Positions 1-28,380 of a stretch of 37,373 nt of DNA are shown in pieces. This DNA is from an uncultured Opitutaceae bacterium. Lineage in GTDB: Bacteria > Verrucomicrobiota > Verrucomicrobiia > Opitutales > Opitutaceae. The notes beneath the pieces are model-generated. The model made no database searches and was not told the origin of the DNA. It was given only the letters and a program-made list of their open reading frames with translations. Within the stretch, counting starts at the first letter, position 1. Each line of letters begins with the position of its first letter. Where the stretch lies: NCBI GenBank assembly GCA_903862595.1, contig CAIOYO010000101.1, positions 1-37,373 of the forward strand, read 5' to 3'. Position numbers and translations under genes: made by a program.

Positions 1-207
1 GACCTCCTCGGGGTGGACGGTGTGCCCTGTGGCGGCGTGAGCGGCGACGATGTCTTTGAGGGAATCGCGGTTGCGCGAAGCGATCACCACGGTGGCACCC
101 GCGGCGACCAAGGCGTCGATCAAGGCGGGTCCGAGCAGTCCGGTGCCGCCGAATTGAACGACGACCTTGCCTTGCAGGGTCAGGGGGAGCGGAGCTTGGT
201 CAGACAT
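1..207 (-). CDS. SDR-type oxidoreductase, N-terminal part (cut by window edge)
   Basis: Only the first 69 codons lie in the window; the rest is to the left. The reverse-strand reading starts MSDQAPLPLTLQGKVVVQFG and has a Rossmann nucleotide-binding turn, GGTGLLG, at about residues 20-26, followed by a helix and VVIASRNRDSL, as in short-chain dehydrogenases/reductases. This fits NAD(P)-dependent oxidation of a sugar, sugar acid or aldehyde in the cytoplasm. The ATG at 205-207 lies just upstream of the TGA (200-202) of the preceding aldolase gene, so the reading frames overlap by 8 bases and translation is probably coupled. As the last visible gene of the leftward series 4292-1 it likely belongs to the same catabolic pathway. 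The substrate cannot be read, and the catalytic Tyr-Lys region is outside the window. Confidence 0.75.
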   Translation of the reverse strand, partial: MSDQAPLPLTLQGKVVVQFGGTGLLGPALIDALVAAGATVVIASRNRDSLKDIVAAHAATGHTVHPEEV

Positions 208-1021
208 AGGGGGAACGGACCGCAGGTTTCGTGGCGGCAGGCAGGGTGTCGATGTGGCCACGCAGGACATCGAGACGTTGTTTCGTGTAGCCGGAAAGTG
301 CGATCACGTCGGCGCCGATGCTGAAGACCCGGAAGCCCTCGTCGACCATCTCGGTGAACGGCGCGTAGAGGCCGGCGGCCATGCAGAACTTTCCCGAGGC
401 TTTGCACGCCGCGGCGACCCGGCGGCGGGCCGCGACGACCGTCGGATGATCGAGCTGGCCGACGTGTCCGATGCGGTGGCTGAAGTCGCCCGGCCCAAAA
501 AGGATGCCGTCGAAGCCCGGCACGGCGCAGATCTTCTCGACGTTCTCGAGCGCCTCCGGGGATTCGATCTGGAGAATGACGATCTTCTCGCGGTTGGAGT
601 GCGCCAAGTATTCGGGAGCTGGTACGAGGCAGAACTGGCCGTCGATGTTGCCGCCATCGAGGGCGCGGCGCCCGACCGGGTGAAAGCGCACCCAGTCGAC
701 GATCTGCCGCGCCTCGTCGGCGTCCGCGACGTGCGGCACGATGATGCCGGCGGCATCCATCTCGAACGGCTTGATGTAGTCGCTGTAACTTCCCTTGGCG
801 ACGCGCACCAGCGCGTCGATATTGTGGATTCGCGCGGCGCGGATTTGGTTCTCCAAACCGATCCAGTCGTTTGGCACGTGCTCCGTGCAGAGCCACACCC
901 CGTCGACACCGCAGAGACCGGCGATTTCCACGACCCGTGGGTCGGAAAGGTTGATCTTGAGCAGCGAGGGAATCTGGCCCTCGCGGAGAAGTCGGAGAAT
1001 GCGGCTGGGACGTAGTTGCAT
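200..1021 (-). CDS. HpcH/HpaI-family class II aldolase (2-keto-3-deoxy acid aldolase type)
   Basis: This 273-residue protein matches the metal-dependent pyruvate aldolases of the HpcH/HpaI family, which cleave 2-keto-3-deoxy acids to pyruvate plus an aldehyde (HpcH, GarL and RhmA are relatives). The expected active-site residues are visible: His48 in CTEH, Arg73 in LVRVAKG, and metal ligands Glu153 (LQIES) and Asp179 (FGPGDFS). Length is close to the usual 250-270. The ATG at 1019-1021 follows the upstream Gfo/Idh/MocA gene by 30 bases, and the 3' end overlaps the next gene by 8 bases, so it sits inside an operon. Together with the enolase-superfamily protein at 7751-8965 it suggests dehydration then aldol cleavage of a sugar acid. 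Family call is firm; substrate is inference. Citrate-lyase beta-like proteins share the fold but fit less well. Confidence 0.88.
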   Translation of the reverse strand: MQLRPSRILRLLREGQIPSLLKINLSDPRVVEIAGLCGVDGVWLCTEHVPNDWIGLENQIRAARIHNIDALVRVAKGSYSDYIKPFEMDAAGIIVPHVADADEARQIVDWVRFHPVGRRALDGGNIDGQFCLVPAPEYLAHSNREKIVILQIESPEALENVEKICAVPGFDGILFGPGDFSHRIGHVGQLDHPTVVAARRRVAAACKASGKFCMAAGLYAPFTEMVDEGFRVFSIGADVIALSGYTKQRLDVLRGHIDTLPAATKPAVRSPYV

Positions 1022-1051: not shown

Positions 1052-2020
1052 TCAGCGCGGGCCGATCTCGGAGAGCGCGACCTCGCGACCGCCGGATTCT
1101 CGGCTGCGGATGCCGGCGATGACGAGCTTCATCAGCTCGACCGTCTCGCTGAAAGGGTAGGGGTGAACGCCTGAGCGGAGGTAGCCGATGAAGGCCTCCA
1201 GCTGGGCACGGAACGCGTAGTACGAATCGCTGGAGGCGGTCTGCACGCGGCCGGCCGTCCCGCAGAGCTGCAGCACGCCGAAGCTGCCGTACATATCGGC
1301 GGACGCGACCACGACTACATCAACCTCTCGGCGGTGGGTGAGGTGCACCACGTTGCGGGCGGCCGTGCCCGTGTTGCGCACGGTGAGGAAGCCGGGCCCG
1401 AGGATCGGGTAGACGGCCTCGAGTGCGTGGATCCCGTAGGTTTCCCAGCTCTTGGCCGTGGTGATGCTGACGAAGCGGAGGTCGCCGAGGTCGCGGGTCG
1501 AATGGCGGTAGGGCATGAACTCCTTCGTGTAGCGCATGCTGCTGGAGGACATGATGGGTAGGCCCTGCTCGACCCAGTGCACGAACGTCTTCAGGTCGGG
1601 CTCGTTGTCGGTGAGCGGCTTGTCGATGAAGACCGGAAGGCCGGCCTCTACGAAAGGCCTAGCGCGTTCAACGTGCTCGTGTCCGATGTCGGTGGCGATG
1701 ATCACCGCGTCGACATGCCCGATGACGTCGGTGGGCTTGTCAACGACGTGGGGAATGAGCGAGCAGCGGGCGACATGCTCGGCGGAGAAGCCGCCGTTGC
1801 CGGCGCAATGGATGTGGGTGACGCGCGCCCCGGGGATCGCGACCGTCGCGGCGGGCTCCTTGTTCAGGTAAGCGGGAATGCCCGGAAACGGACACTCCTT
1901 GGTCATCAGCTCGCGGTCATAACCGTTGAACAGGGCGCTCCAGGAGTACGGATGGCCGTTGCCAACCGTCGAGCCGAGCATGGCGAGACGGATGTCTTGG
2001 GGATTGCGGACGAGGGGCAT
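1052..2020 (-). CDS. Gfo/Idh/MocA family oxidoreductase
   Basis: This 322-residue cytoplasmic protein belongs to the Gfo/Idh/MocA group of NAD(P)-dependent dehydrogenases, which typically oxidise or reduce sugars, inositols and related polyols. Support comes from the N-terminal Rossmann strand (RLAMLGSTVGNG), the segment VDAVIIATDIGHEHVERA, and FIDKPLTDN near residue 133, the position of the family's EKP motif. Two points differ from a textbook member: the first glycine loop reads LGSTVGNG rather than GxGxxG, and the EKP motif is DKP. The C-terminal part has the usual sheet and ends after an arginine-rich tail. The gene follows the di-iron ferritin-like gene by 13 bases and precedes the aldolase by 30, so all are probably co-transcribed. 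Substrate is unknown. Confidence 0.85.
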   Translation of the reverse strand: MPLVRNPQDIRLAMLGSTVGNGHPYSWSALFNGYDRELMTKECPFPGIPAYLNKEPAATVAIPGARVTHIHCAGNGGFSAEHVARCSLIPHVVDKPTDVIGHVDAVIIATDIGHEHVERARPFVEAGLPVFIDKPLTDNEPDLKTFVHWVEQGLPIMSSSSMRYTKEFMPYRHSTRDLGDLRFVSITTAKSWETYGIHALEAVYPILGPGFLTVRNTGTAARNVVHLTHRREVDVVVVASADMYGSFGVLQLCGTAGRVQTASSDSYYAFRAQLEAFIGYLRSGVHPYPFSETVELMKLVIAGIRSRESGGREVALSEIGPR

Positions 2021-2033
2021 GAAAAAGAAAGGG

Positions 2034-3272
2034 TTACTCGACGTTGAGGGGTAGCTTGCCGGAGCGGTACTGGCTCTCCCAGACTTTGAGTGCGTCGGCG
2101 GTGTAGGTGTCGACGGAGCGCTTCTCGCCGATGTGACGGAGCATCTCCGGAAGCCAGCGGTGGCCGAAGCGCACGTGCTGCGTCTCGTCGGCGATGTCGT
2201 AGCGCACGAACTGCTCGCTCAAGCGGTCACCCGACTTCTCGTGAGCCTCGACGCGGCGATGGCGGTAGGGAAAGGCGTGGACCTCGTTGCCCATCGTGAG
2301 CATGCAATACTGCATCACCGGCGGGAACTGGCAGCGCCAGCGAAAGACCTGCAGGTACTGCGGACTCTGGAAGGGGTCGAGGCCGTTGCGGCGCATCCAC
2401 TCGTAGCCCATCAGGCAGTGCCGCACCTCGTCGTAGAGATGGCGTGCGCTGTCGAACTGGAACTCCCACGGCATGTCGCGCAGTCCGTAGAGCACGACGG
2501 CGACCGTCTCCGCCGCCAGCATCTCCGTGGAATAACGTTCGAACTCCTCAATGGTGTGGGCGCGGTAATCTTCCTCAGGGGGCATCACGGCAAAGTCGGC
2601 GCCACGATTGGTGAAGCGGGCGTCGCGGGCGGCCTCGCGCGGCGGGGTGAACTCCTGGCGCTCGGGCGGTGGGGTCGGCGCGGCGGCCCGAGGGCCGGTG
2701 CCGGACACGCCTCCGGAGGCGTCAAGGAGCGCCTGGACGTAGCGTTCCCACGCGGTGGCGGCGGCTGAGCCCGCGCCTTCCGCCTCGGCAGCGGTGAGCA
2801 GCGGGAGTACCCGTTCCTGCTGCGAGCGCAGATCGAGCAAGGCATGCTTGATCGCGTAGACGCTGGGCAGATCGCTGTTCGGGAACGTAGCGGTCTCGTG
2901 GTCCGAGAGTGCTTTGATCAGTGCCGGGAGAACGACCCGGTAGATGCCCCGGACAAGCGCGTGCTCGTCGGGCGCGTGGCGCAACTCGGCCGCCAGACGC
3001 ACGAACGCCGCGTCGTCGGGGCGCTGGAACGCGGGCGACTGGATCTCGCGCAGTCGCAGGTAGAGCGCGTTCACGTGCAATGCGCATTCCCAAATGGTGC
3101 GCCCCACCTCGCACTTCGTCTCGAAGTGCCCCAACGCCGGCATCCACCCGGCGAGGACCTGCATGATTTCGTGTTCGAGAAAGCGGTAGCGGTTGAGCAG
3201 CCGGCGATTGGCGTCGATCGGCAGGGTGACCGCAACCGGAGCCGGGGACGTGGAGTCGGGGAGTGAGACCAT
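2034..3272 (-). CDS. Ferritin-like di-iron protein of unknown function
   Basis: I do not recognise a named function. This 412-residue protein has two helical parts joined by a Pro/Ala-rich linker (about 185-212). The C-terminal part carries a full E...ExxH...E...ExxH di-iron carboxylate set: Glu255 (LAAET), Glu282/His285 (DEVRH), Glu330 (MGNEV) and Glu363/His366 (DETQH). The N-terminal part is also helix-rich and acidic/His-containing (LEHEIMQ, ETKCEVG, WECALH) and could be a degenerate ferritin-like repeat. No signal peptide or membrane segment is visible. It resembles uncharacterised ferritin-like proteins (DUF455/MiaE-like in style), so oxygenase, peroxidase or demetallation activity is possible. 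It lies between two Gfo/Idh/MocA genes, 6 bases after one and 13 before the other, implying a shared operon and a role with them. Di-iron site: fairly sure; function: unknown. Confidence 0.72.
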   Translation of the reverse strand: MVSLPDSTSPAPVAVTLPIDANRRLLNRYRFLEHEIMQVLAGWMPALGHFETKCEVGRTIWECALHVNALYLRLREIQSPAFQRPDDAAFVRLAAELRHAPDEHALVRGIYRVVLPALIKALSDHETATFPNSDLPSVYAIKHALLDLRSQQERVLPLLTAAEAEGAGSAAATAWERYVQALLDASGGVSGTGPRAAAPTPPPERQEFTPPREAARDARFTNRGADFAVMPPEEDYRAHTIEEFERYSTEMLAAETVAVVLYGLRDMPWEFQFDSARHLYDEVRHCLMGYEWMRRNGLDPFQSPQYLQVFRWRCQFPPVMQYCMLTMGNEVHAFPYRHRRVEAHEKSGDRLSEQFVRYDIADETQHVRFGHRWLPEMLRHIGEKRSVDTYTADALKVWESQYRSGKLPLNVE

Positions 3273-3278
3273 GGGAAT

Positions 3279-4292
3279 TTACGAAGTGACGTTGGCGCAG
3301 TGGACGCGAACGCCCTGGTCCGCCGACGCGAGGGCGGCGAGATTGAACCGGAGTGTCTGCTCGGCCGCCTCGAGGGAACAAAGCGCAGTCGGACGTCCCT
3401 CCACGAGATCGAGGAAGCGATTGGCCTGCACGATGAAGAAGGTGTCGCGCTCCGCCGGGGGCATATCCTTCCACGTCCACGTGGTCTCGCCGAGGCGCTG
3501 GATGCCCCAGCGGCGCAGGTGGACCTCCATCCGCACGCTGCCGGCTTCCGCATTGAACTGCGTGAAGGACTCGTTGGGCGCCTGGAACTGGTTCATTGTG
3601 TAGTTAACCAGCACGTCGCCATGGCGCGCACAGAGGTTGATGGTGTCTTCGACCGTAACGTGGGCGAGCACCTGGTGGGCGCAGTCGCAGTACAGCGAGT
3701 CGGTCGGGCCGATCACACTTTCCATCCAGTTTGCGACGTGGGTGAGGCCGTCTTGGATCGCGCCGCCGCCGGTGGCTCGATCCTTGTAGTACGTCTTGTA
3801 GTATGGGACCGTGTGGGCCGGGCGGCAGGTCGGGAAGTGCTGGCCGCTGCTGTGAACCACCTGCTTGACCGCGCCGATGCCGCCGCCGCGGATGAAGTCT
3901 CGGACCTCGGAGTAAAGATCGTAGGAGTGGAGAACGTAGGCGACCGCGACACGCAGGCCTTTCGCGTCGCGGAGCTGGCGCAGTTCGGCTACTCCTGCGA
4001 ACGACTGCGAGAGCGGCTTCTCGATCAGGGCATGGCAGCCCGCTTCCAAGGCCTGGCGGGCCATTGGCACGTGCAAATGCGCCGGGGTGCAGATCACCAC
4101 CACCTGATGGCGTCCGGACGCCAACTCTGCCTTCCAGTCCGTGGCGGTCTTCACCCCGTAGGTTTGCGCCAGCGTAGCGAGGAGCGGTTCGCTGGTATCG
4201 CAGGCCGTGACGTGGGCGCGACCTGTTTTCTGAAAGCAGCGAAGGTGCCGTTCACCGATGCTGCCGCAACCGACGACAAGGACGGAAATCAT
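3279..4292 (-). CDS. Gfo/Idh/MocA family oxidoreductase
   Basis: A 337-residue NAD(P)-dependent oxidoreductase with a clear N-terminal Rossmann loop VVGCGSIGERH, the strand VVVICTPAHLH, and the family motif IEKPLSQS near residue 93. The second domain contains the substrate-side segment GGGAIQDGLTHVANW. The frame stays open for 76 more codons upstream, but that extension is Arg/Ser-rich and lies over the divergent regulatory gap. The start at 4290-4292 (MISVLVVGCG) puts the first beta strand at the N-terminus as usual for the family. It is the first gene of the leftward series, so its promoter should lie in 4293-4547. It probably oxidises or reduces the compound imported by the divergently transcribed receptor; the substrate is not readable. 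Confidence 0.87.
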   Translation of the reverse strand: MISVLVVGCGSIGERHLRCFQKTGRAHVTACDTSEPLLATLAQTYGVKTATDWKAELASGRHQVVVICTPAHLHVPMARQALEAGCHALIEKPLSQSFAGVAELRQLRDAKGLRVAVAYVLHSYDLYSEVRDFIRGGGIGAVKQVVHSSGQHFPTCRPAHTVPYYKTYYKDRATGGGAIQDGLTHVANWMESVIGPTDSLYCDCAHQVLAHVTVEDTINLCARHGDVLVNYTMNQFQAPNESFTQFNAEAGSVRMEVHLRRWGIQRLGETTWTWKDMPPAERDTFFIVQANRFLDLVEGRPTALCSLEAAEQTLRFNLAALASADQGVRVHCANVTS

Positions 4293-4547: not shown

Positions 4548-6737
4548 ATGAACCAAATCACCCGTCGCAGCGCTTTCGCGCGCCGCGCCTGTCAGATCGT
4601 CACCGCGCTGGCTGCGGTTTCCGTAGCGGCTAACGCTCAGACCACCCCCGCAGCCTCCTCCGGCCCGAAGGAAGAGGTCGTGGCGCTATCGAAGTTCGAA
4701 GTCTCAACCACGCAGGGCAAAGGCTACGTGGCGACAAATGCCGCCAGCGGCTTCAAGACCAACCAAGAGCTCATCAAGATCCCGCAGTCCGTTACGGTTG
4801 TAACGCGCGACTTGATTGACGACATTGGCGCCACGCGGACCTCCGACGTGCTGCAGTACGCCGGCGCGTCGCAATTCTACCGCGGCGAGTCCATCCGCCT
4901 CCGCGGTGCGCGCACGCTGAATCCCTACATGGACGACGCGATCGAGAACGTGCCGTACAGCGACAACGTCAACATCGACTCTTACGAAGTCATCCGCGGT
5001 CCGGCGGGCGTACTGTACGCGAATGCCGGCGTGGCAGGCGTGGTCCTCAAGTCGACCAAGAAGCCGCTGCCGTACTCGATGAACAAGGTCAGCTTCTCCA
5101 TCAAGGACTGGGGTCAGCATCGCACGGAGCTCGATTCGACCGGTCCGGTCGGCAATCTCGGCGACGCCAAGGTGTCGTACCGGGTCGCTGCTGCCTACCA
5201 GGATGGTGATGCCTACTTCAAGAACGTCGAGGATCAGCGCTTCGCGGTGCATCCCACGATTCAGGTCGACCTGAAGAACACCACGGTGCGTGCCGCGATC
5301 GACTATGTCGACGTCACCAGCATCGCCGGTGGACAGAACTTCGTGATGCCGGACGGCAAGCTCTACGTCGGCGCGGGTCGCAATGAGGCCTACTATCCGA
5401 AGGGCGTCATGGAGAATCACAAGCAGGAGCGCCAGCGCCTCGCGATCCTCCATCGCTTTGGCGATGGCTGGGAAGCGAAGTTTTCCGCGTCTCACCTCAA
5501 GTACGTCCGCCACGGCACCAATGTGCTGCCGAACAACCTGAATCTCCAGACCGGCCTCTTCAACCTGTTCGCCCGTCGTAACTACCAGCGCCAGGAGAAC
5601 TGGGTGGTCAACGGCGACGTGCTGGGTAACTACAACATCGGCCCGATCGCCAATCAGAGCGCGGCCGGGTTCACCCTGACCGACGAAGTCAACCGTGCGT
5701 CGTTCCTCAACAACGCTGGTTTCGGCGTGCAGGGCTTCCCGATCGCCAATCCGCAGATGGACCGGGTCGTCGTTCCGACGTATGACTCCTACGGCCCTCC
5801 CTCCGCCGTCGGCAGCTGGACGAACAATCGTCGCTCGACCTACTACTACCAGCACCAGGCTGACCTCATCAAGGACCGCCTCATCGTCGTCGCCGGCGTG
5901 AGCGCTGCAGGCCTCCAAATCAACGACGTGCCGGCGGTCACCGCCCGCACGACGGCCGGTGGCACCCGCATCGTGAACTTCGATGAGAACCTCCGCCGCA
6001 TCGGTGTGGTGGTGAATGTCACGAAGGAGGTCGCTCTCTACGCGCTCGACTCGACGACGTTCGCCCCCCAGGGCAACAGCAATACCCGTGACATCAACGG
6101 CGTGCTGCTCCCGGCGCAGGTCGGCTCGGGCAAGGAATACGGCCTCAAGACGTCGCTGTTCGACGGTCGTCTCTCGGCCACGCTGGCGAGCTTCGAGATG
6201 GAGCTCACCAATGTTGCCGTGCTGCAGGGCGGTCTGAGCCCGATCACCAGCCAGCCGTTCTTCATCGCCAGCGGTCTCCAGATCCAGAAGGGCTGGGACG
6301 CGACGATCGCGTACTCGCCGATCCCGGAGTGGCAGATCCTCGTCACGGCCTTCGATGGCTCGGTCAAGGATCAGAACGGCGCGACCGTGAACAACACGTA
6401 CGACAACATGTACTCGTTCTTCACGCGCTACGAATTCAGCCAAGGCAGCCTGAAGAACTTCAGCTTCGGCGGCGGCGGTTCGAAGACCGGTGGCAACATC
6501 TTCACCAGCCTCGGCGGTTACACGTTCCCGACGGGCGTGACGCCGGCCCCGATCACGCTGGAGTCGGTCTGGAACATGACCGCCTTCGCGGCCTACAAGA
6601 TCAACAAGAACTGGACGGTGCGGATGAACATCGAGAACCTCCTCGACAAGACGTTCGCGCTGGGTGCGCAGACGCCGATCTACGTCGACGCGGCTCCGCC
6701 CCGGACGTTCCAGTTCAGCGCGGTCTACAAGTTCTAA
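4548..6737 (+). CDS. TonB-dependent outer-membrane receptor
   Basis: This 729-residue protein should form an outer-membrane beta-barrel importing a ligand with energy from TonB-ExbBD. It has a cleavable signal peptide (RR-containing n-region, hydrophobic stretch to about residue 30, ANAQ), then a TonB-box-like EEVVALSKFEV near 46-56. The plug domain follows, with KIPQSVTVVTRDLIDD, SIRLRGARTLNPYMDD and EVIRGPAGVLYANAGVAGVV. The barrel ends in a phenylalanine (QFSAVYKF), the usual outer-membrane assembly signal, preceded by MNIENLLDKTF. It is shorter than many Opitutaceae receptors (commonly 800-1100 residues in my experience), with no visible break. It is transcribed away from the oxidoreductase operon and is closed by a strong hairpin at 6804, so it is probably expressed more strongly than the genes behind it. 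The ligand is likely a carbohydrate by context; a siderophore cannot be excluded. Confidence 0.93.
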   Translation: MNQITRRSAFARRACQIVTALAAVSVAANAQTTPAASSGPKEEVVALSKFEVSTTQGKGYVATNAASGFKTNQELIKIPQSVTVVTRDLIDDIGATRTSDVLQYAGASQFYRGESIRLRGARTLNPYMDDAIENVPYSDNVNIDSYEVIRGPAGVLYANAGVAGVVLKSTKKPLPYSMNKVSFSIKDWGQHRTELDSTGPVGNLGDAKVSYRVAAAYQDGDAYFKNVEDQRFAVHPTIQVDLKNTTVRAAIDYVDVTSIAGGQNFVMPDGKLYVGAGRNEAYYPKGVMENHKQERQRLAILHRFGDGWEAKFSASHLKYVRHGTNVLPNNLNLQTGLFNLFARRNYQRQENWVVNGDVLGNYNIGPIANQSAAGFTLTDEVNRASFLNNAGFGVQGFPIANPQMDRVVVPTYDSYGPPSAVGSWTNNRRSTYYYQHQADLIKDRLIVVAGVSAAGLQINDVPAVTARTTAGGTRIVNFDENLRRIGVVVNVTKEVALYALDSTTFAPQGNSNTRDINGVLLPAQVGSGKEYGLKTSLFDGRLSATLASFEMELTNVAVLQGGLSPITSQPFFIASGLQIQKGWDATIAYSPIPEWQILVTAFDGSVKDQNGATVNNTYDNMYSFFTRYEFSQGSLKNFSFGGGGSKTGGNIFTSLGGYTFPTGVTPAPITLESVWNMTAFAAYKINKNWTVRMNIENLLDKTFALGAQTPIYVDAAPPRTFQFSAVYKF

Positions 6738-6803
6738 CGCACCTCCAGGGCTCGCTGGCTCAAGCATGATCCACGGCCCTGATCGTTTGCGCTGTTTGTG
6801 AGC

Positions 6804-6840
6804 AACGGCCGGAGACGCGAGTCTCCGGCCGTTCCATTTT
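6804..6840 (+). terminator. Rho-independent terminator after the TonB receptor
   Basis: A perfect 13-base-pair stem (6804-6816 with 6821-6833, AACGGCCGGAGAC / GTCTCCGGCCGTT) closes a GCGA tetraloop, a GNRA-type loop, and is followed by CCATTTT. It lies 66 bases after the receptor stop and 30 bases before the ATG of the next gene. It should separate the receptor from the downstream enzyme genes, or attenuate read-through into them. Confidence 0.8.
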
Positions 6841-6863
6841 CTGGGTTCGTCCCACCCCCCGCC

Positions 6864-7754
6864 ATGCCACCGCGTCGCCGCACTCCTCCACGCCACCAGG
6901 CGTCCGGGCCTGCCGTCGCATCGCGTCCACTCTGGCTCTTCGCCACGCTTTGGTCGCTGCGCCAGTATCCGACCGCAAAGCGCGAGTGGAGCTGGGAGCG
7001 CAAGTTCCAGGCGATCCGCGCGGCCGGCTTCGACGGGATATTCTCGCCGCCGAGGTCCGAGTTGGCGGACCGGGGCGACCTTCGTTACCTCGCGGTCACC
7101 AGCCTGGGTCCCGGCATGGACGCGGTCGCGCCGTTCCGCGCGGCCAAGGATCTGGGCGCAGTCGCCATCGACGTCCAACTCGGCGATTACGACTCGCCGT
7201 TGGCGGACATGGTGGAGCTGACCGCACACCTCGCTTCGGTCTCGCGTGACGTCGGGCTGCCGTTCGCCGTCGAGACGCATCGGGACACGTTCACGGAGAC
7301 GCCCGAGGCGACACTCGCCTTGGAACGGGGCTTTCGTGCGCGCACCGGGCACGTCCTGCCGCTCTGTCTAGATCACTCACACTTTGCGGTGGTTCGTCAT
7401 CTGGCCCCGGGAACGTTCTGGGAGCGCCTGCGCGAGCCTCGCGAACTGCTGGAGTCGGCGTCGCAGTTCCACCTCCGCCCGTTCAACGGTCACCATTGCC
7501 AGATCCCCGTGCTCGATGCGCGGGGCCGGCGCACCCCGGAGTACCGCGAGTGGCTGAACTATGCCCAGTCGCTTCTTGCGTACCTGAGGAATTCGCCCAG
7601 TCGCGATCCCGTGCTCGCGGTCCCGGAGCTCGGGCACGCCGCTCCGTCGTACGGCCTGAGCTGCTTTGGTGACACGTGGGCCGACGCCTGTGCCGTGCAA
7701 CGTGACCTGCGCGCCCGGTGGCGCGATCCCTCTCTTTCAGTCCTCTCCCCATGA
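6864..7754 (+). CDS. Xylose-isomerase-like TIM barrel protein (sugar isomerase/epimerase family)
   Basis: This 296-residue protein resembles the sugar phosphate isomerase/epimerase (AP endonuclease 2-like) TIM barrels. Visible features are WERKFQAIRAAGFDGIF near residue 45, LGPGMDAVAPFRAAKDLGA, and candidate metal ligands Glu137 (AVETHRDT), Asp170/His171 (LCLDHSHF), His203 (FHLRPFNGHH) and a glutamate in AVPELGH. The frame is open from 6798, but that start falls on the terminator hairpin at 6804-6833, so I use the ATG at 6864. No good ribosome site is seen. The stop TGA (7752-7754) overlaps the next ATG (7751) in ATGA, so translation of the two genes is coupled. A role in isomerising the imported sugar is inferred from neighbours; the exact reaction is unknown. 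Confidence 0.75.
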   Translation: MPPRRRTPPRHQASGPAVASRPLWLFATLWSLRQYPTAKREWSWERKFQAIRAAGFDGIFSPPRSELADRGDLRYLAVTSLGPGMDAVAPFRAAKDLGAVAIDVQLGDYDSPLADMVELTAHLASVSRDVGLPFAVETHRDTFTETPEATLALERGFRARTGHVLPLCLDHSHFAVVRHLAPGTFWERLREPRELLESASQFHLRPFNGHHCQIPVLDARGRRTPEYREWLNYAQSLLAYLRNSPSRDPVLAVPELGHAAPSYGLSCFGDTWADACAVQRDLRARWRDPSLSVLSP

Positions 7755-8965
7755 CCATCACTGACGTCCGCACCGTCCTCCTCACCGGACCGTGCACCAA
7801 CGACCCATTCCTCCGCGAGGCGCGCAAGCTGCGTAGCGCCGCGTTCATCGAGATTTTCACCGACGGCCCGCACACGGGATTGGGCGAGACCTACGCGGGC
7901 TACTTTTGCCCCGAAGCCGTTCCGGCCATCGTCGATTTCTTCAAGCCCATCCTCGTCGGCCAGAACGTTGATGACATCCCGGAGCTGTGGCGGCGCATGT
8001 ACCAGTGCGGAAACTTCTGGTGCCGCGTTGGTCTGGGCACGATCGTGATCAACGGCATTGAGGCGGCGTTGTACGATCTCAAGGGCAAGCTTGAGGATAA
8101 GCCGGTGCATGCGCTGCTCGGCGGCGCGAAGTTCGACCGCTTGCCGTGCTACGCCACCGGCGGCCCCAGCAACTACCCCAAGGAGAAGCTGGCCCGAAAG
8201 ATCGACCACTACTTCTCGCTCGGCTTCCGCGGAATCAAGGTCGGATCGGGTAGTTTCTCGGCGGAGAAGGGCTTCTATTCCCCTTCGGACGCGAAGGAGG
8301 CGGCGGACTTCGAGGCGGACAAGGCAGCGTTCATGCGGGCGCATGCCGGCAAGGATGCGTGGATCATGTTCGATGGGCACATGGGCAACAGCCCGCATCG
8401 CACGTGGGACCTCGAGGTGGCCACCGCAGTCGCACGCGCATTGGAGCCGTTCGACCTCTTCTTTCTTGAGGAGCCCCTGCACTACACCGACCCCTGGGGG
8501 TACGCGGAGCTGTGCAAGGCCACGACGGTGCCGATCGCTGGTGGCGAGTGCCTCACGGCGACCTATGAGTGGAAAGTTTTTACGAAGCAGGACAGCTTCG
8601 ACATCGGCCAACCCGATGCCTCCTTCACCGGAGGCCTCGGTGAGTTCATGGCTGTGGCGCGTTTGCTCGAAGAGCGTGGTCGCAAGATCGCGACGCATGC
8701 CTGGGGCGCGGGGGCATCGCTGATGCAGAATGTGCACGCCGGCTTTGCGGCGCCGAACACCTGTATCTTGGAAATCGCCCCTGACTACGCGGGGCTGCAT
8801 TCCGAACTGATCGATGGCGGCCTGGTGATTCGGGACGGCTATGCGCTCCCGCCTGACCGACCCGGCCTCGGCGTGGTGCTCACGGAGGAGACGCGGCGGC
8901 GCTACCCCTTCAAGCCCGGCAGCGGCGAATTCAACAGCGTACCCGGCAAGATTCTGCGCGACTGA
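7751..8965 (+). CDS. Mandelate racemase/enolase-superfamily protein, probable sugar-acid dehydratase
   Basis: A 404-residue enolase-superfamily member. The metal ligands appear as Asp208 (MFDGHMG), Glu240 (FFLEEPL) and Glu266 (AGGECLT). The acid/base pair of the mandelate racemase group is visible as Asp289 (GQPD) and His316 (ATHAWGAG). At the end of the second barrel strand the KxK motif reads Lys163-Val-Gly, so the second lysine is absent; I recall that acid-sugar dehydratases such as rhamnonate dehydratase rely on the His-Asp pair. It probably dehydrates an aldonic or uronic-type acid to a 2-keto-3-deoxy acid in the cytoplasm, which fits the aldolase at 200-1021. The upstream frame (from 7718) overlaps the preceding gene; the ATG at 7751 in the ATGA overlap is the better start. 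Racemase or cycloisomerase activity remains possible. Confidence 0.87.
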   Translation: MTITDVRTVLLTGPCTNDPFLREARKLRSAAFIEIFTDGPHTGLGETYAGYFCPEAVPAIVDFFKPILVGQNVDDIPELWRRMYQCGNFWCRVGLGTIVINGIEAALYDLKGKLEDKPVHALLGGAKFDRLPCYATGGPSNYPKEKLARKIDHYFSLGFRGIKVGSGSFSAEKGFYSPSDAKEAADFEADKAAFMRAHAGKDAWIMFDGHMGNSPHRTWDLEVATAVARALEPFDLFFLEEPLHYTDPWGYAELCKATTVPIAGGECLTATYEWKVFTKQDSFDIGQPDASFTGGLGEFMAVARLLEERGRKIATHAWGAGASLMQNVHAGFAAPNTCILEIAPDYAGLHSELIDGGLVIRDGYALPPDRPGLGVVLTEETRRRYPFKPGSGEFNSVPGKILRD

Positions 8966-10152: not shown

Positions 10153-11296
10153 ATGCTCGCTCCCGAGACCTTTTCCCACATCGAGAACATCAAGAAGCGC
10201 GCCGGCCACCTCTGGAGGTTTCTTTGACTGCGAACAAAAGCAGCGCGAAATCGAGGCGATGGAAGGCCAGATGGCCGCGCCTGGTTTCTGGGATAACAAC
10301 GACCGCGCGCAGAAGCACATCGCCAAGCTCAATGGCTTGAAGCGTGCGGTGCTTCCGGTCGTCGACTTCCAGCGCAAGCTCGCGGATGTCGCGGTGATGC
10401 TGGAGCTTCTCGACGCGGCATCCGAGGCAGAGAAGGACGTCTACGCGCGCGAGTTGGACCAGCAGGTCGCGGGCATGGTCACGGAGCTCGACCAGCTGGA
10501 AATCGCTTCGTTTCTCACGGGACAGTTCGACCGCAACAACGCGATTCTCTCCATCCAATCCGGAGCCGGTGGCACCGAGTCCAACGACTGGGCGGACATT
10601 CTCTTCCGCATGTACACCCGGTGGGCCGATCGGCGCGGCTTCACGGTCGAGGTACAGGACGTACAGGCCGGCGACCAAGCCGGCATCTCCCGGGCGACCC
10701 TGCTCATCAAGGGCGAGAATGCCTACGGCTACGTCAAGGCCGAGCGTGGCGTGCATCGGCTCGTCCGCATCAGTCCATTCGACGCCAATCAGCGGCGGCA
10801 CACCTCGTTCTGTGCGGTCGATGTGGTCGCGGAGATCTCCGACGACATCAAGGTGGATGTCCCCGAGGACGAGCTTCGCATCGACGTCTATCGTTCGTCC
10901 GGCAAGGGCGGTCAGGGGGTCAACACCACCGATTCCGCCGTCCGCATCACCCACTTGCCCACGGGTTTGGTGGTCGTGTGCCAAAACGAGCGCTCCCAAC
11001 TCAAGAACAAGGCCTCGGCGATGAGCATCCTGAAGGCGCGACTCTACGAGAAGCGCCTCGATGAGCAGCGCAGCGAGATGGAGCGATTCTATGGGGAGAA
11101 GGGCGAGATCGGGTGGGGGAGCCAGATCCGCAGCTACGTTCTTCAGCCTTACCAGATGGTGAAGGACTTGCGCACCGGCGTCAGCACCAGCGACACGCAA
11201 GGGGTGCTCGACGGCGACCTCGATCGCTTCATCACGGGTTGGCTGCGCGCGGGCTGTCCGCGCCACCGCAACAAAGACATCCAGATCGAGGAATAG
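10153..11296 (+). CDS. prfB: Peptide chain release factor 2, with programmed +1 frameshift
   Basis: RF2 recognises UGA and UAA stop codons and triggers peptide release on the ribosome. The gene is read in two frames: 24 codons from ATG 10153 reach an in-frame TGA at 10225-10227, then a +1 shift at CTT-TGA continues from GAC 10226 to TAG 11294-11296, giving about 380 residues, near the usual 365. RF2 identity is shown by the SPF codon-reading tripeptide (RISPFDANQ) and the catalytic GGQ loop ([15 protein letters not shown]). The frame after the shift is open from 10025, but nothing there resembles RF2, while the short first frame ([18 protein letters not shown]) does. Expression is autoregulated through the frameshift. 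The gene starts 167 bases after the catabolic cluster and is probably separately transcribed. Confidence 0.96.
10211..10228 (+). promoter_or_regulatory. prfB programmed +1 frameshift site
   Basis: The sequence TGG AGG TTT CTT TGA C contains a Shine-Dalgarno-like GGAGG just upstream of the slippery CTT and an in-frame TGA (10225-10227) followed by C. This matches the known prfB layout in E. coli (an AGGGGG element, then CTT TGA C). When RF2 is scarce the ribosome slips to read GAC and makes full-length RF2; when it is plentiful, termination gives a 24-residue peptide. Confidence 0.93.
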
Positions 11297-22719: not shown

Positions 22720-22736
22720 TCGCGGACGTCAGTCCG
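22710..22736. terminator. Weak bidirectional hairpin over convergent stop codons
   Basis: CGGACTG (22710-22716) pairs with CAGTCCG (22730-22736) across a 13-base loop that holds the plus-strand TAG; the minus-strand TGA lies at its far edge. A GTC/GAC inner pairing is possible. No T tract follows on either side, so termination strength is doubtful. Confidence 0.3.
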
Positions 22737-25700
22737 CCGACACGAGCCGCTTGAGGTGCCGGTTGAGGTAAGGCGCCGTCGGGCTGGAGCGACGCGAGAG
22801 CAGGGCGGCAAGCGGACCGCTGAAAAGCAACCGGCCCCCGTCCGGTCCGCCGTCCGGCCCGAGTTCGACGATCCAGTCGGCCTCAGCGATCACATCCAGG
22901 TGGTGCTCGATGACGATCACGGTGTGTCCCTGTTCGACAAGGGCGTGGAGGACGCCGATGAGTCGCTCACAGTCACTGAGGTGTAGCCCGATCGTCGGCT
23001 CCTCAAGCAGGTAGAGATTGCGCACCGCGGTGCCGCGCGCGCGGTCTCGCACGCCGGGCAGCCCGGCGGCCAACTCGGAGACGAGCTTGAGCCGCTGTGC
23101 CTCGCCTCCAGACAGCGTAGGCGAGCTCTGGCCGAGCGAAAGGTACCCGAGGCCGCAATCGACCATCAGGCGGCACACCGCCGAGAGCGTCGCATGAAAG
23201 TCAAAAAACTCGACGGCCTCCTCAAAACTGAGCTGCAGGACTTCTCCGATGTTTTTTCCTTTCCAGCGGATGTCTGCCACCTCCGCTCCGTAGCGCAGCC
23301 CGCGACAGTCGTCGCAGGGTAGATAGGTCTCGGGCATGAACGCCATTTCGAGCCGAATCCGTCCGGCACCTTCGCAGGTGGGGCAGCGTCCGCCTGCGGT
23401 GTTGAACGAGAACCGGCTGGCGGTGTAGCCGCGGACCTTCGACTCCGGAAGCGTCGCGAAAAACGTCCGGATGACGTCGAAGATCCCGAGGTAGGTGGCC
23501 GGGGTCGATCGGGGAGTCTTTCCGATGGGGGACTGATCCACCTCCACCACGGAGCGGAATGAGGCCGCGCCCCGCAATTCCGCAAAGGTCGACTGAGCGT
23601 GCGGCGCAGCGGCCTTGCTGCGTCTTGCGCCACGTACGCGATCGACCCCTTCGGTCCGTGCCTGTTCCACGCCTCGCCCGATGAGTTCATGCACGAGAGT
23701 CGACTTCCCCGCGCCGCTGGGGCCGATGACGACCACGAGACGGGCGAGGGGGAGGGAGACATCGAATCCGCGGAGGTTCCGGGCGCAGGCGCCCGTGAGG
23801 GTGAGCCATTGTTTCGGATCGCGGGGCGAGGGCGGGAGGCGATACGCGCCGCGCGTGGGATGGGCGATGCCACGACGCAGGAGGCGACCCGTGACCGACG
23901 TGCTGGTCGCGCACACTTGGGCCGGAGGGCCCTCCGCGAGGATGCGTCCGCCGTGAATCCCGGCACCGGGACCGAGGTCGATCAGGTGATCCGCGCGAGA
24001 CATGAGTTCATCGTCATGCTCGACCACAAGGACCGAGTTCCCCTTGTCGCGCAGGCGTTCCAGGGTCGTGATCAAGCGTTGATTGTCGCGGGCGTGCAGC
24101 CCGATGCTCGGTTCATCGAGTACATAGAGCACCCCGGCGAGATTGGTCCCGAGTTGCGCCGCCAGTCGAATTCGCTGGGCCTCGCCGCCGGAGAGCGTGT
24201 CCGTCGGCCGGTCGAGCGTGAGGTACCCCAGGCCCACCTCGTCGAGAAAGCGCAGCCGCTCGCGAATCGGTGGCATGATGTCCTTGAGAATCAGACGGCC
24301 GCGCGCATCAAGCTTGATGCGGCTCAGGCTGCGGAGCAGTCCAGCGGGCGTCTCAGCGAGTAGCTCTGGGAGGGATTGCGGTGAACCGGCGCGCATCGGC
24401 AGGCGAACCGCACGACTCGTGCGATTCAGCCGCGCACCGCCGCAGTCGGGGCAGGGACTCCCTTCTCCGCTCACGTCGTCGGCCTGCTCCAACCCGAACT
24501 CGCGGAGTCGCCGGAGCGCTTCCTCCGCATCGTCGCCTCCGCCATCCTCGACCTCGAGCATCCATGGAAAGATTCGTCCATGGCCCCGGCACGATGGGCA
24601 CCAGCCACGAGGCGAGTTGTGGGAGAAGTGCTTGGGGTCGAGCTCCGGAAAACTCTCCCCGGTTTCGCTGTCCGTTCTCGTGGTGGAGAACCACGAAAGG
24701 ACCTCGCCGCGCGGGGTGAGGAGGAAGCATGCCCCCTTGCCGAGCCGCAGCGCCTCCGCGAGAGGGTCGCGGCCGCGCTCGCGGCGCCCCCCTTGGCGCA
24801 GGTCGGCGACTACGACCTCAATGTCGTGCTCACGATAGCGATCCAGTTTCTCGAAGGTCGACACGGGACGCAGTTGGCCGTCGACGCGCATGAGCTCATA
24901 GCCGTGGTTCGCAATCCATGTCGCGATGGGCTGGTGGTGCCCCTTCCGACCCCGCACCAAGGGCGCACAGAGGTAAAGGTGTGATGAGCGACGCGCCGGC
25001 GCCGACTGGGTTACGCGCGAGAGCAGCCGACGCAGTTGCGCCAAGCTCAGCGGCTCAACGGCGCGCCCCGTATCGGGGTGATGCTGGATCCCGACGCGCG
25101 CGAAGAGAAGCCGGAGGTACTGGGCCACCTCTGTGATCGTCGCCACGGTGGACTTGCGGGAGCCTCGGGTGACGCGCTGCTCGATCGCGACCGTGGGCGG
25201 GATGCCTTCGATGCGGTCGACTTCCGGGCGCGGCAGCTGCTCGACGAACTGACGCGCGTAGGGCGACATCGACTCCATGAATCGGCGCTGGCCCTCGGCG
25301 AATACGATGTCGAATGCGAGGGTCGACTTTCCTGAGCCAGACACCCCGGTGACCACGACCAGCTGGCGTTGTGGGATCTCGAGCGAGAGATCACGTAGAT
25401 TGTGCTCGCGAGCGCCCGCGATCCGCAGGACTCCCGAGGGTTGAGCGTGCTCCCTAGAAGCAGGCTGCCGGCGGTCCTCAGCCGGGCACGCACTTTCGAG
25501 TCCGAGCGCCGCGCGCAGGAAGGGCGATGTCGCGGTCGAGTGACCTGCGACGACTTCGGGCGCCCCTTCAGCGACCACCTGGCCGCCGTTCAGACCGGCT
25601 TCCGGGCCGAGTTCGATGATCCAATCCGCGCTTTTGAGGACATCCAGATTGTGCTCGATTACAATCATGCTGTGCCCGCGGTCGACGATCTGCTGCATCA

Positions 25701-28380
25701 CCGAAAGCAATCTCGCGACATCATGGCGATGCAGGCCCGTGGTCGGCTCGTCGAGCAACAACAGGGCCGGCGACCCCTCCGATCCGTCAATAGGTCCGAG
25801 GTACTTGATCAGTTTGAGGCGCTGAGCCTCGCCCCCGCTGAGCGTATTGAGGGGCTGCCCCAGAGTGAGGTAGCCGAGACCGACAGCGTCCAAGGCCTTA
25901 AGGCGCACCTGCACCTTGGGATGATCGGCGAACAGCGGCAAGGCATCGGACACGCTGGAGGCAAGGAGGTCCGCGACCGAGCGTTCGTTCCAAGTGATCG
26001 CGAGCACCTCCGGGCGGAAGCGACGGCCTTCGCAGGTGGGACAGGGAACAAACACGTCGGACAGGAATTGCATCTCCACCCGCTCGTAGCCCAGGCCGAG
26101 GCAGTGCTCGCACCGACCGTCACCGGCGTTGAACGAGAAACTGGAGGCACTGAGGCCGCGTTCCCGGGCCTCCGGAGTCGCTGCGTAGAGTTCACGAATC
26201 GTGTCCCACGCTTCCGTGTACAGTGCCGGATTCGAGCGGGGTGTCCGCGATAGCGGTGACTGATCGACAAACACCACGTCGGAGAAGTCAGTCTGCCCTT
26301 CAATGCGCTCAATCGCTGCGGCGTCGTCCGTGAACTGATGTCGCAGTGCCTGCAGGCCCTGGAAAAGAGCGTGGTCGAGGAGGGTGGACTTACCCGAACC
26401 GGAAACGCCGCTGAGACACACGAGACGCCCGAGCGGCACCGAGACATCGAGGGCCCGCAAGTTATGCTTGGTCACGCCGCGCAGGTGGATTCTTGGGGTT
26501 TCCGCGGTGACGCTGCGCCGCAGGGCAGGTGGTCGGAGACTGCGGCGTCCGAACAGGTAGTCCCCGGTGAGGCTCGCCCGATCGGTGACCAGATCATTCA
26601 AGCTGCCGGAGAACACCACCTGTCCGCCGCGCGAACCAGGCTCGGGACCGATCTCGATCATATGGTCGGCCGCCCGGATCATCGCCTCATCGTGCTCGAC
26701 GACGACGACGGTGTTCCCGACGTCGGTGAGACGACGCACAATCGCAATGAGTCGATCCACGTCGCGGGCGTGCAGCCCGACGCTGGGTTCGTCGAGGACG
26801 AAGAGCGTATCGACCAAGGATGTGCCGAGGCAGGAGGTAAGATTCACTCGCTGCACCTCCCCGCCGGAAAGAGTCTTCGAAGGGCGATCGAGCGAGAGGT
26901 AACCGAGCCCGACCTGTTGGAGGTAGCGGAGGCGCGTCACGATGGCCTCGAATGCGCTTGCGGCGGAGCGTTCGGTGACGAGGGCCTTGTCCTCGGTCAT
27001 CAACGGCAGCAGGGAATCCACGGGCAGCTGATAAAGCTGCGGCAGGGTGCGCCCGCGCCACTGCCAGCAAAGGGATTCCGGTTGCAGGCGGGCGCCGGCG
27101 CAGGCGGGGCAGGGGTTGTAAGCGCGGTAGCGAGAGAGAAAGACGCGGACGTGCATCTTGTACGTGCTCTTCTCGAGCCAGCGGAAGAACCCCTTCACGC
27201 CGTACCATGCTTTCGGCCACTCGCGGCCCGACTCGCCGTAGTCGGGCTCTCCGTCGACCACCAGCGCGCGATGCTCCGGCGAGAGGTCGGCGAATGGCGC
27301 GTCCACCGGGATGCCGCGGCTGCGGGCGAAGCGGATCAGGTCCTTCTTCGATTCGCCGTAGACCTCACCCTCCCAGCAGCGGATCGCTCCCTCGCTGATC
27401 GATTTCGAGCCATCGGGAATTGCCAGCCGGTAGTCCACCTCGATCACGCGGCCGAAGCCGCGGCACTGCGGACAGGCCCCGAGAGGCGAATTGAAGGAGA
27501 AAAGCGCGGGAGCAGATGCGCGGAACCGCTGGCCCGTGACCGGGGAGCGCAGCCCGCGACAAAACCTCCCGAGCTCGCCAAGACCCTCGGCCGCGAGCAC
27601 GCGGAGTTCCCCGTCACCAAAGTGGAGCGCGGTCTCCGCCGCCTCGACAAAACGCGCGCGCTCGCTCTCGGTGACGCGGAGGCGATCCTGCACGACCTCG
27701 ACCTCGCGGGCGCCCGTCAGCGGCTCGGCCTGTTGGAGAAGGTCCTCGATGCGGGAAACGGCGGGCTCGCCGTTCGCGCCACCGGCGACGATCACGCGCT
27801 GGTACGTCTGGCTCAGCAGGGAAGAAAGCACCTCCCGCCACGCCAGCTTCTCTGGACGGCGGACGCGGAACGTGACGAGGATGGTCTCGGACCGATGAGC
27901 GGCCGAAACGCGCTGCCAGATCGCGGCGGGATGATCGTCGTGGATCGGCAGACCGGTGGCCGGATCGTGCAGGTGGGCCACCTGGGCGAACCAGACTTTG
28001 AAGAAGTCTGTTAGCTCCGTCATCGTACCGACGGTGGAGCGCGAGGTCTTCACCGTGTTGGTCTGCTCGATCGCGATCGAAGGACGGATGTTCTCGATCG
28101 CGTCGACCTGTGGCTTGCTCAGCAGATCGAGGAACTGTCGCGTGTAGGCACTGAACGTCTCGACATAGCGTCGCTGACCCTCCGCGTGGAGCGTATCGAA
28201 GACGAGCGACGACTTGCCTGCACCGCTCAGGCCGGTGACCACCACGAACTTTCCGAGCGGGATATCGAGATCGAATCCCTTCAGGTTATTCTGCCGTACA
28301 CCGCGCAGCCGAATGCACTCGGGTCGAGTGCGCGGCTCGAGCGCGGAAGGTGGGCGGACGGAGGGAGAACGGGAAGCCAC
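22729..28380 (-). CDS. uvrA: Double-length (tandem) excinuclease ABC subunit UvrA
   Basis: UvrA finds bulky DNA lesions and loads UvrB in nucleotide excision repair. At 1883 residues this is two UvrA units fused in one frame; ordinary UvrA is about 940. There are four ATPase P-loops: GLSGAGKSS (50-58), GVSGSGKST near 655, GVSGSGKST near 1013 and GPSGAGKST near 1553. Four LSGGE signatures (LSGGEVQR, LSGGEAQR x3) are matched by Walker B segments VLDEPSVGLH, LLDEPTTGLH, VLDEPSIGLH and, in the last, LLEEPTIGLH. Zinc-type CPxC pairs occur in all four, but the first Cys pair of the NBD1 zinc module is missing in both units. The start is GTG at 28378-28380. It lies 31 bases after ybeY on the same strand, so it may be the end of the phoH-pgpH-ybeY operon. 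Confidence 0.96.
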   Translation of the reverse strand: MASRSPSVRPPSALEPRTRPECIRLRGVRQNNLKGFDLDIPLGKFVVVTGLSGAGKSSLVFDTLHAEGQRRYVETFSAYTRQFLDLLSKPQVDAIENIRPSIAIEQTNTVKTSRSTVGTMTELTDFFKVWFAQVAHLHDPATGLPIHDDHPAAIWQRVSAAHRSETILVTFRVRRPEKLAWREVLSSLLSQTYQRVIVAGGANGEPAVSRIEDLLQQAEPLTGAREVEVVQDRLRVTESERARFVEAAETALHFGDGELRVLAAEGLGELGRFCRGLRSPVTGQRFRASAPALFSFNSPLGACPQCRGFGRVIEVDYRLAIPDGSKSISEGAIRCWEGEVYGESKKDLIRFARSRGIPVDAPFADLSPEHRALVVDGEPDYGESGREWPKAWYGVKGFFRWLEKSTYKMHVRVFLSRYRAYNPCPACAGARLQPESLCWQWRGRTLPQLYQLPVDSLLPLMTEDKALVTERSAASAFEAIVTRLRYLQQVGLGYLSLDRPSKTLSGGEVQRVNLTSCLGTSLVDTLFVLDEPSVGLHARDVDRLIAIVRRLTDVGNTVVVVEHDEAMIRAADHMIEIGPEPGSRGGQVVFSGSLNDLVTDRASLTGDYLFGRRSLRPPALRRSVTAETPRIHLRGVTKHNLRALDVSVPLGRLVCLSGVSGSGKSTLLDHALFQGLQALRHQFTDDAAAIERIEGQTDFSDVVFVDQSPLSRTPRSNPALYTEAWDTIRELYAATPEARERGLSASSFSFNAGDGRCEHCLGLGYERVEMQFLSDVFVPCPTCEGRRFRPEVLAITWNERSVADLLASSVSDALPLFADHPKVQVRLKALDAVGLGYLTLGQPLNTLSGGEAQRLKLIKYLGPIDGSEGSPALLLLDEPTTGLHRHDVARLLSVMQQIVDRGHSMIVIEHNLDVLKSADWIIELGPEAGLNGGQVVAEGAPEVVAGHSTATSPFLRAALGLESACPAEDRRQPASREHAQPSGVLRIAGAREHNLRDLSLEIPQRQLVVVTGVSGSGKSTLAFDIVFAEGQRRFMESMSPYARQFVEQLPRPEVDRIEGIPPTVAIEQRVTRGSRKSTVATITEVAQYLRLLFARVGIQHHPDTGRAVEPLSLAQLRRLLSRVTQSAPARRSSHLYLCAPLVRGRKGHHQPIATWIANHGYELMRVDGQLRPVSTFEKLDRYREHDIEVVVADLRQGGRRERGRDPLAEALRLGKGACFLLTPRGEVLSWFSTTRTDSETGESFPELDPKHFSHNSPRGWCPSCRGHGRIFPWMLEVEDGGGDDAEEALRRLREFGLEQADDVSGEGSPCPDCGGARLNRTSRAVRLPMRAGSPQSLPELLAETPAGLLRSLSRIKLDARGRLILKDIMPPIRERLRFLDEVGLGYLTLDRPTDTLSGGEAQRIRLAAQLGTNLAGVLYVLDEPSIGLHARDNQRLITTLERLRDKGNSVLVVEHDDELMSRADHLIDLGPGAGIHGGRILAEGPPAQVCATSTSVTGRLLRRGIAHPTRGAYRLPPSPRDPKQWLTLTGACARNLRGFDVSLPLARLVVVIGPSGAGKSTLVHELIGRGVEQARTEGVDRVRGARRSKAAAPHAQSTFAELRGAASFRSVVEVDQSPIGKTPRSTPATYLGIFDVIRTFFATLPESKVRGYTASRFSFNTAGGRCPTCEGAGRIRLEMAFMPETYLPCDDCRGLRYGAEVADIRWKGKNIGEVLQLSFEEAVEFFDFHATLSAVCRLMVDCGLGYLSLGQSSPTLSGGEAQRLKLVSELAAGLPGVRDRARGTAVRNLYLLEEPTIGLHLSDCERLIGVLHALVEQGHTVIVIEHHLDVIAEADWIVELGPDGGPDGGRLLFSGPLAALLSRRSSPTAPYLNRHLKRLVSAD

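Follow-up and report, generated by a model that had tools for sequence, protein, structure and literature searches.

The gene at positions 2034-3272 of the window (the whole stretch of DNA that was analysed, 37,373 nucleotides from an uncultured Opitutaceae bacterium) is on the minus strand and encodes a protein of 412 amino acids that is predicted to fold into two ferritin-like bundles, of which the C-terminal one carries an invariant set of candidate metal ligands. We propose, with a probability of about one half, that this protein is an accessory O2-dependent di-iron enzyme that feeds a sugar-acid pathway, the metal, the O2 chemistry and the substrate being the parts that we infer.

The gene is the second of a minus-strand operon that runs GfoA, the DUF455-related gene, GfoB and an HpcH/HpaI aldolase gene (Table 1). 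The gaps are 6 bp upstream to GfoA and 13 bp downstream to GfoB, the very distances to two Gfo/Idh/MocA genes that an earlier note on this DNA had given. Most of the PDB relatives of the HpaI-type aldolase are aldolases of 2-keto-3-deoxy sugar acids or related ones. On the divergent plus-strand side there is, besides the genes in Table 1, a 2-hydroxyacid dehydrogenase gene (Pfam), and the TonB receptor gene is kept upstream in several relatives. The nearest NCBIfam models of the dehydratase at 7718..8965 are arabinonate, talarate/galactarate, galactonate and rhamnonate dehydratases, all below cut-off. The presence of an acid-sugar dehydratase and of a keto-acid aldolase among the operon neighbours is consistent with a sugar-acid route. 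GfoB is an unusual Gfo/Idh/MocA protein in that it leaves the Rossmann profile unmatched in its N-terminal part, and a search of the PDB by sequence gave no similar solved structure for it. The source genome assembly is 3.34 Mb, and the closest named relatives are Opitutaceae MAGs, for the most part from freshwater.

Table 1. Features of the window that bear on the DUF455-related gene
Feature	Position	Strand	Basis
DUF455-related two-domain ferritin-like protein, 412 aa	2034..3272	-	PF04305 at residues 249-400; AF2 pLDDT 91.8
N-terminal ferritin-like bundle, residues ~14-195, without metal ligand set	2688..3233	-	structural alignment; weak profile match to C-domain
C-terminal ferritin-like bundle, residues ~236-404, ligand-bearing	2061..2567	-	AF2 alone pLDDT 86.6; VIA Z 13-14
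E250, most likely first metal ligand	2523..2525	-	invariance
E255, codon	2508-2510	-	variable residue
E282xxH285, first ExxH	2418..2429	-	invariant; aligned to bacterioferritin E51/H54
E330, third-helix ligand	2283..2285	-	91/92; aligned to bacterioferritin E94
E363xxH366, second ExxH	2175..2186	-	invariant; aligned to bacterioferritin E127/H130
GfoA, Gfo/Idh/MocA dehydrogenase, operon gene 1	3279..4292	-	PF01408 1.8e-21 + PF22725; ATG at 4292, stop 3279
GfoB, divergent Gfo/Idh/MocA protein	1052..2020	-	PF01408 2e-6
HpcH/HpaI-type aldolase	200..1021	-	PF03328 1.9e-26
TonB-dependent receptor, divergent	4548..6737	+	PF07715 Plug
Xylose-isomerase-like TIM barrel protein	6798..7754	+	weak AP_endonuc_2 match, 0.024
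Enolase-superfamily acid-sugar dehydratase	7718..8965	+	PF13378/PF02746

Sequence family and predicted fold

The match to DUF455 (E 2e-6, 28 bits) spans only positions 73-225 of the profile and falls below the curated cut-off of 34.3 bits, yet the cut-off is passed by two orthologues (G140:C110 with 36.1 bits and G123:C487 with 35.2) and by two paralogues from the same genome (C220 with 47.3 and C238 with 42.9), and therefore, on these sequence scores, we file the protein as a divergent relative of DUF455 and not as a formal member. DUF455 was matched in all 43 aligned proteins. A canonical member, the very divergent L128 (156 bits), also has the E/ExxH/E/ExxH pattern and aligns with all six of E250, E282, H285, E330, E363 and H366, but the protein described here has about 200 further residues that make up its N-terminal bundle. 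The earlier note had named DUF455, MiaE and rubrerythrin as families to search, and it is the DUF455 relation, at its sub-cut-off score, that was found. Up to an E of 1, Pfam gave besides DUF455 just a sub-threshold EncFtn-like match, with the MiaE family absent; there was no Pfam match to rubrerythrin or to the ferritin family, and none to any NCBIfam model. The 412-aa sequence has no CxxC pair such as a rubredoxin FeCys4 domain would need. When the PDB was searched, the single sequence gave nothing up to an E of 10 and the full-length profile gave chance matches only, while with the C-domain profile the best match among solved di-iron proteins was a weak one to bacterioferritin (E 0.024). 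Our search of the literature for DUF455, or for a ferritin-like protein with Gfo/Idh/MocA genes, found no report of a function; one paper remarks that designed sequences could link DUF455 with a SCOP family and notes nothing more on it (PMC4520260). Di-iron ferritin-like oxygenases themselves are an already known kind; within reach of the searches made, a DUF455-type branch with two bundles and a link to sugar cassettes is an undescribed variant.

For the full-length protein the AF2 model is all helices (pLDDT 91.8, pTM 0.91), and the C-terminal 200 residues folded alone gave a pLDDT of 86.6. By structural alignment with VIA, residues 13-194 lie on ferritin-like proteins with Z of 15-16, namely ADO (5ux2), the beta-type chain of T4moH (5tds_B) and bacterioferritins. 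The structural neighbours of the C-domain are mostly di-iron oxygenases, with Z of 13-14, rmsd of ~3.0-3.5 and 160-177 residues aligned: ADO (8fhc; Z 14.2, rmsd 3.3, 177 aligned), the alpha chain of the sMMO hydroxylase (Z 13.9), MiaE (2itb and 6zma; Z 13.3-13.4, a likeness that is structural only), T4mo, R2lox and VlmB, and a family missing from this aligner's listing is not thereby excluded. With a Z of about 13 one is close to the range in which helical bundles may align just through their arrangement, and Foldseek gave no E below 0.001 with the model of either the whole protein or the C-domain. For this reason the case for a ferritin-like protein is made on fold and ligands taken together. 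In the prediction, the C-terminal part is a four-helix bundle in which E, ExxH, E and ExxH are spread over four successive helices: E250 opens the helix 250-263, E282 and H285 are in 269-295, E330 is in 318-347, and E363 and H366 are in 350-380. The model and the structural alignment thus agree with what had been suspected from the letters, that two ferritin-like bundles are joined in one chain.

By sequence the protein belongs to none of the known di-iron ferritin-like oxygenases (ADO, MiaE, the sMMO and T4mo hydroxylases, R2lox, AurF/CmlI/VlmB), with which it would share the fold of both domains and, in the C-domain, the pattern of ligands; it differs from them in being a single chain with one ligand-bearing and one ligand-free bundle, encoded in a sugar operon.

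Candidate metal ligands and the ligand-free bundle

The earlier note had proposed a full di-iron ligand set made of E255, E282, H285, E330, E363 and H366. All of these residues sit at those positions, and the last five are invariant in 42 aligned relatives of 24-92% identity, so the ExxH/E/ExxH pattern is not a matter of chance. When 92 C-terminal domains were compared, E282, H285, E363 and H366 were present in all and E330 in 91. The first ligand did not stand: the position of E255 has 47 E, 39 D, 3 A and 2 K among these domains and E255 was rejected on conservation, whereas five residues earlier E250 is invariant, both in the alignments of relatives (A1 and A2) and in 90 of 90 domains with a residue there (the other two have gaps). 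In the alignment of the C-domain profile with bacterioferritin, E282, H285, E330, E363 and H366 fall exactly on chain residues 51, 54, 94, 127 and 130 (E51, H54, E94, E127 and H130), which are ferroxidase ligands of bacterioferritin. The first ligand of bacterioferritin is E18, 33 residues ahead of E51, and E250 lies 32 residues from E282 but E255 only 27. Since E250 is both invariant and at a bacterioferritin-like spacing, we are almost certain that it is the first ligand, and the candidate set, as corrected from the alignments, would be E250, E282, H285, E330, E363 and H366. The C-terminal bundle, as modelled, would hold a putative di-iron centre with these ligands.

This ligand pattern is common to ferroxidases, and with bacterioferritin as the best match among solved structures the protein could be a two-metal ferroxidase or a peroxide- or iron-handling protein that has no organic substrate and owes its place in the operon to stress during sugar oxidation. 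We consider this unlikely because different clades of the family have partners of their own (the GfoA/GfoB cassette, PhyH, URO-D or creatininase), which along with several paralogues per genome points to different substrates, and because in the annotated loci we recognised no gene for iron handling that recurs beside the family. Bacterioferritin also lacks the second bundle in the chain. Another metal or chemistry, either an Mn/Fe site such as that of R2lox, which is among the nearest structural neighbours, or a non-redox dinuclear site, seems to us very improbable, on the understanding that ligand sets cannot tell Fe/Fe from Mn/Fe.

The N-terminal bundle has no E/ExxH/E/ExxH set, and its conservation falls below that of the C-domain in all 42 pairs compared, the mean identity of N versus C being 65 versus 81% in orthologues and 20 versus 35% in paralogues; the reading of this half as a degenerate unit is borne out on both counts. 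Profile-profile comparison of the two halves put them in register over 115 ungapped columns (P 0.011, probability 3.8%) and set W61ECALH66 opposite Y280DEVRH285, which is suggestive of an internal duplication, although the argument rests mainly on the shared predicted fold. It is likely that the N-terminal bundle is a duplicated, degenerate copy. By analogy, it may be comparable to the beta-type subunits of bacterial multicomponent monooxygenases, which likewise have no ligands.

Gene neighbourhoods across the relatives

In a clade of 18 rows (support 95) the gene lies between GfoA and GfoB, usually with HpaI and SDR genes following. Its tight placement within this sugar-catabolic GfoA-GfoB-HpaI-SDR cassette, as had been claimed for the operon, is kept in about 18 genomes; in G107 (L057/L211) it comes after the SDRs instead. 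The cassette also occurs without the gene, with GfoA directly beside GfoB, in many Opitutaceae (for example G128, G094, G145, G124, G090 and G095), and among loci with GfoB orthologues of at least 71% identity the gene adjoins in about 14 and does not in 8. Of 20 paralogues, three distant ones (L067, L073 and L143) are within 7 kb of a cassette as against 0.03-0.08 expected by chance, a figure that is optimistic because catabolic genes cluster. On the tree the cassette label needs six changes, at least five of them forced by well-supported branches; as judged from this tree, other family members entered the same cassette separately.

That a cassette can be complete in other respects and yet do without the gene is what would be expected if the enzyme broadens the range of substrates, and the O2-dependent chemistry might be directed at a non-sugar part of the substrate (an O-methyl group, another substituent or an aglycone), thereby freeing the sugar for the cassette. 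Relatives that adjoin URO-D-like and PhyH genes fit with this, but no gene for formaldehyde detoxification or an aromatic pathway was recognised in the scanned neighbours, and we regard it as a minority possibility, somewhat ahead of a ferroxidase.

Outside the cassette, four orthologues (L037, L041, L047 and L050) are divergent to an AraC gene, and divergent AraC genes are found beside many members (27 neighbour cases). These cases could speak for a non-catalytic partner or regulator with a structural metal site, which would either act together with the divergent regulator, AraC or GntR, or scaffold the dehydrogenases. We think this improbable: all six ligands and several charged residues nearby are invariant, the ligand-bearing domain is in every pair the slower to evolve, and the cassette clade carries GntR and not AraC.

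A separate clade of 15 rows (L125, L130, L146, L147, L149, L151, L153, L154, L156, L157, L158 and L160-L163) has a PhyH gene immediately upstream in every case, in whose product the Fe/2-oxoglutarate residues H155xD157, H265 and R277 are invariant. This conserved module of divergent AraC, PhyH and DUF455-type genes in Opitutaceae has two genes of non-haem iron oxygenase type in tandem. Further members adjoin URO-D-like or creatininase genes. Among the recurrent neighbours are two large proteins without any Pfam match, at L063:2559-4028 (490 aa) and L125:1616-3943 (776 aa), that are possibly glycan-related. The family is patchy: a search with a single sequence found it in 74 of 150 Opitutaceae-family genomes and a stricter one in 34 of 387 genomes across the phylum, and none was found on the plasmids searched. 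COX1 is present in all 74 family-bearing genomes, but it is also present in 144 of the 150 overall, and as a test of O2 dependence this association (p 0.03) barely discriminates and is uninformative. Besides the gene described here, the genome of the window, G000, has as many as four other members of the family, on contigs C238, C220, C303 and C145, each in a different gene context and two of them cut by contig ends.

Proposed function

In the accessory di-iron enzyme that we propose, the C-terminal centre would bind iron and activate O2, and the ligand-less N-terminal copy might support the fold or a substrate channel, the part that beta-type subunits play in the monooxygenases of toluene and methane. 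The reaction would be an optional oxidative step on a sugar-derived substrate, such as a hydroxylation or the oxidative removal of a substituent, and the product would enter the GfoA-GfoB-HpaI-SDR route of dehydrogenation/reduction and then retro-aldol cleavage, it being understood that gene order by itself cannot name the substrate. We saw no ferredoxin or reductase gene that the cassette has for its own use, and for that reason a reaction of oxidase or dioxygenase type, or the use of general cellular reductants, has to be considered.

The earlier note had held that use of a di-iron site in sugar oxidation would be unusual. Since cassettes without the gene are common, the gene is not in the core route, and an accessory step is likelier than a step that oxidises the sugar itself. 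Nor would such chemistry be without precedent: myo-inositol oxygenase is a di-iron enzyme that uses O2 and acts on a sugar-like polyol, but it has the HD-domain fold with an unrelated ligand arrangement.

More tentatively, the family may be a new class of ferritin-fold di-iron oxygenases for sugar-type carbon sources, in which a DUF455 domain was duplicated into a catalytic and a ligand-less half, was taken up repeatedly by Gfo/aldolase cassettes and became paired, in a sister branch, with an Fe/2-oxoglutarate oxygenase. The conserved cassette gives DUF455 a concrete and testable setting in which cassettes with and without the gene are natural controls. Should the protein prove to be an enzyme that depends on O2, sugar catabolism in bacteria would gain a di-iron step of the ferritin fold, and part of the enzyme diversity in freshwater Verrucomicrobiota that degrade algal or plant glycans would be accounted for.

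Two other features of the window were noted. The prfB gene (RF2) at 10153-11296 on the plus strand has the usual programmed +1 frameshift and is ordinary: the frame from the ATG at 10153 ends ...WRFL-TGA at CTTTGAC, with TGGAGG ahead, and the listed ORF follows. On the minus strand, the ORF at 22729-28380 encodes a UvrA-like protein of 1883 aa, apparently with two UvrA-like halves in one protein.
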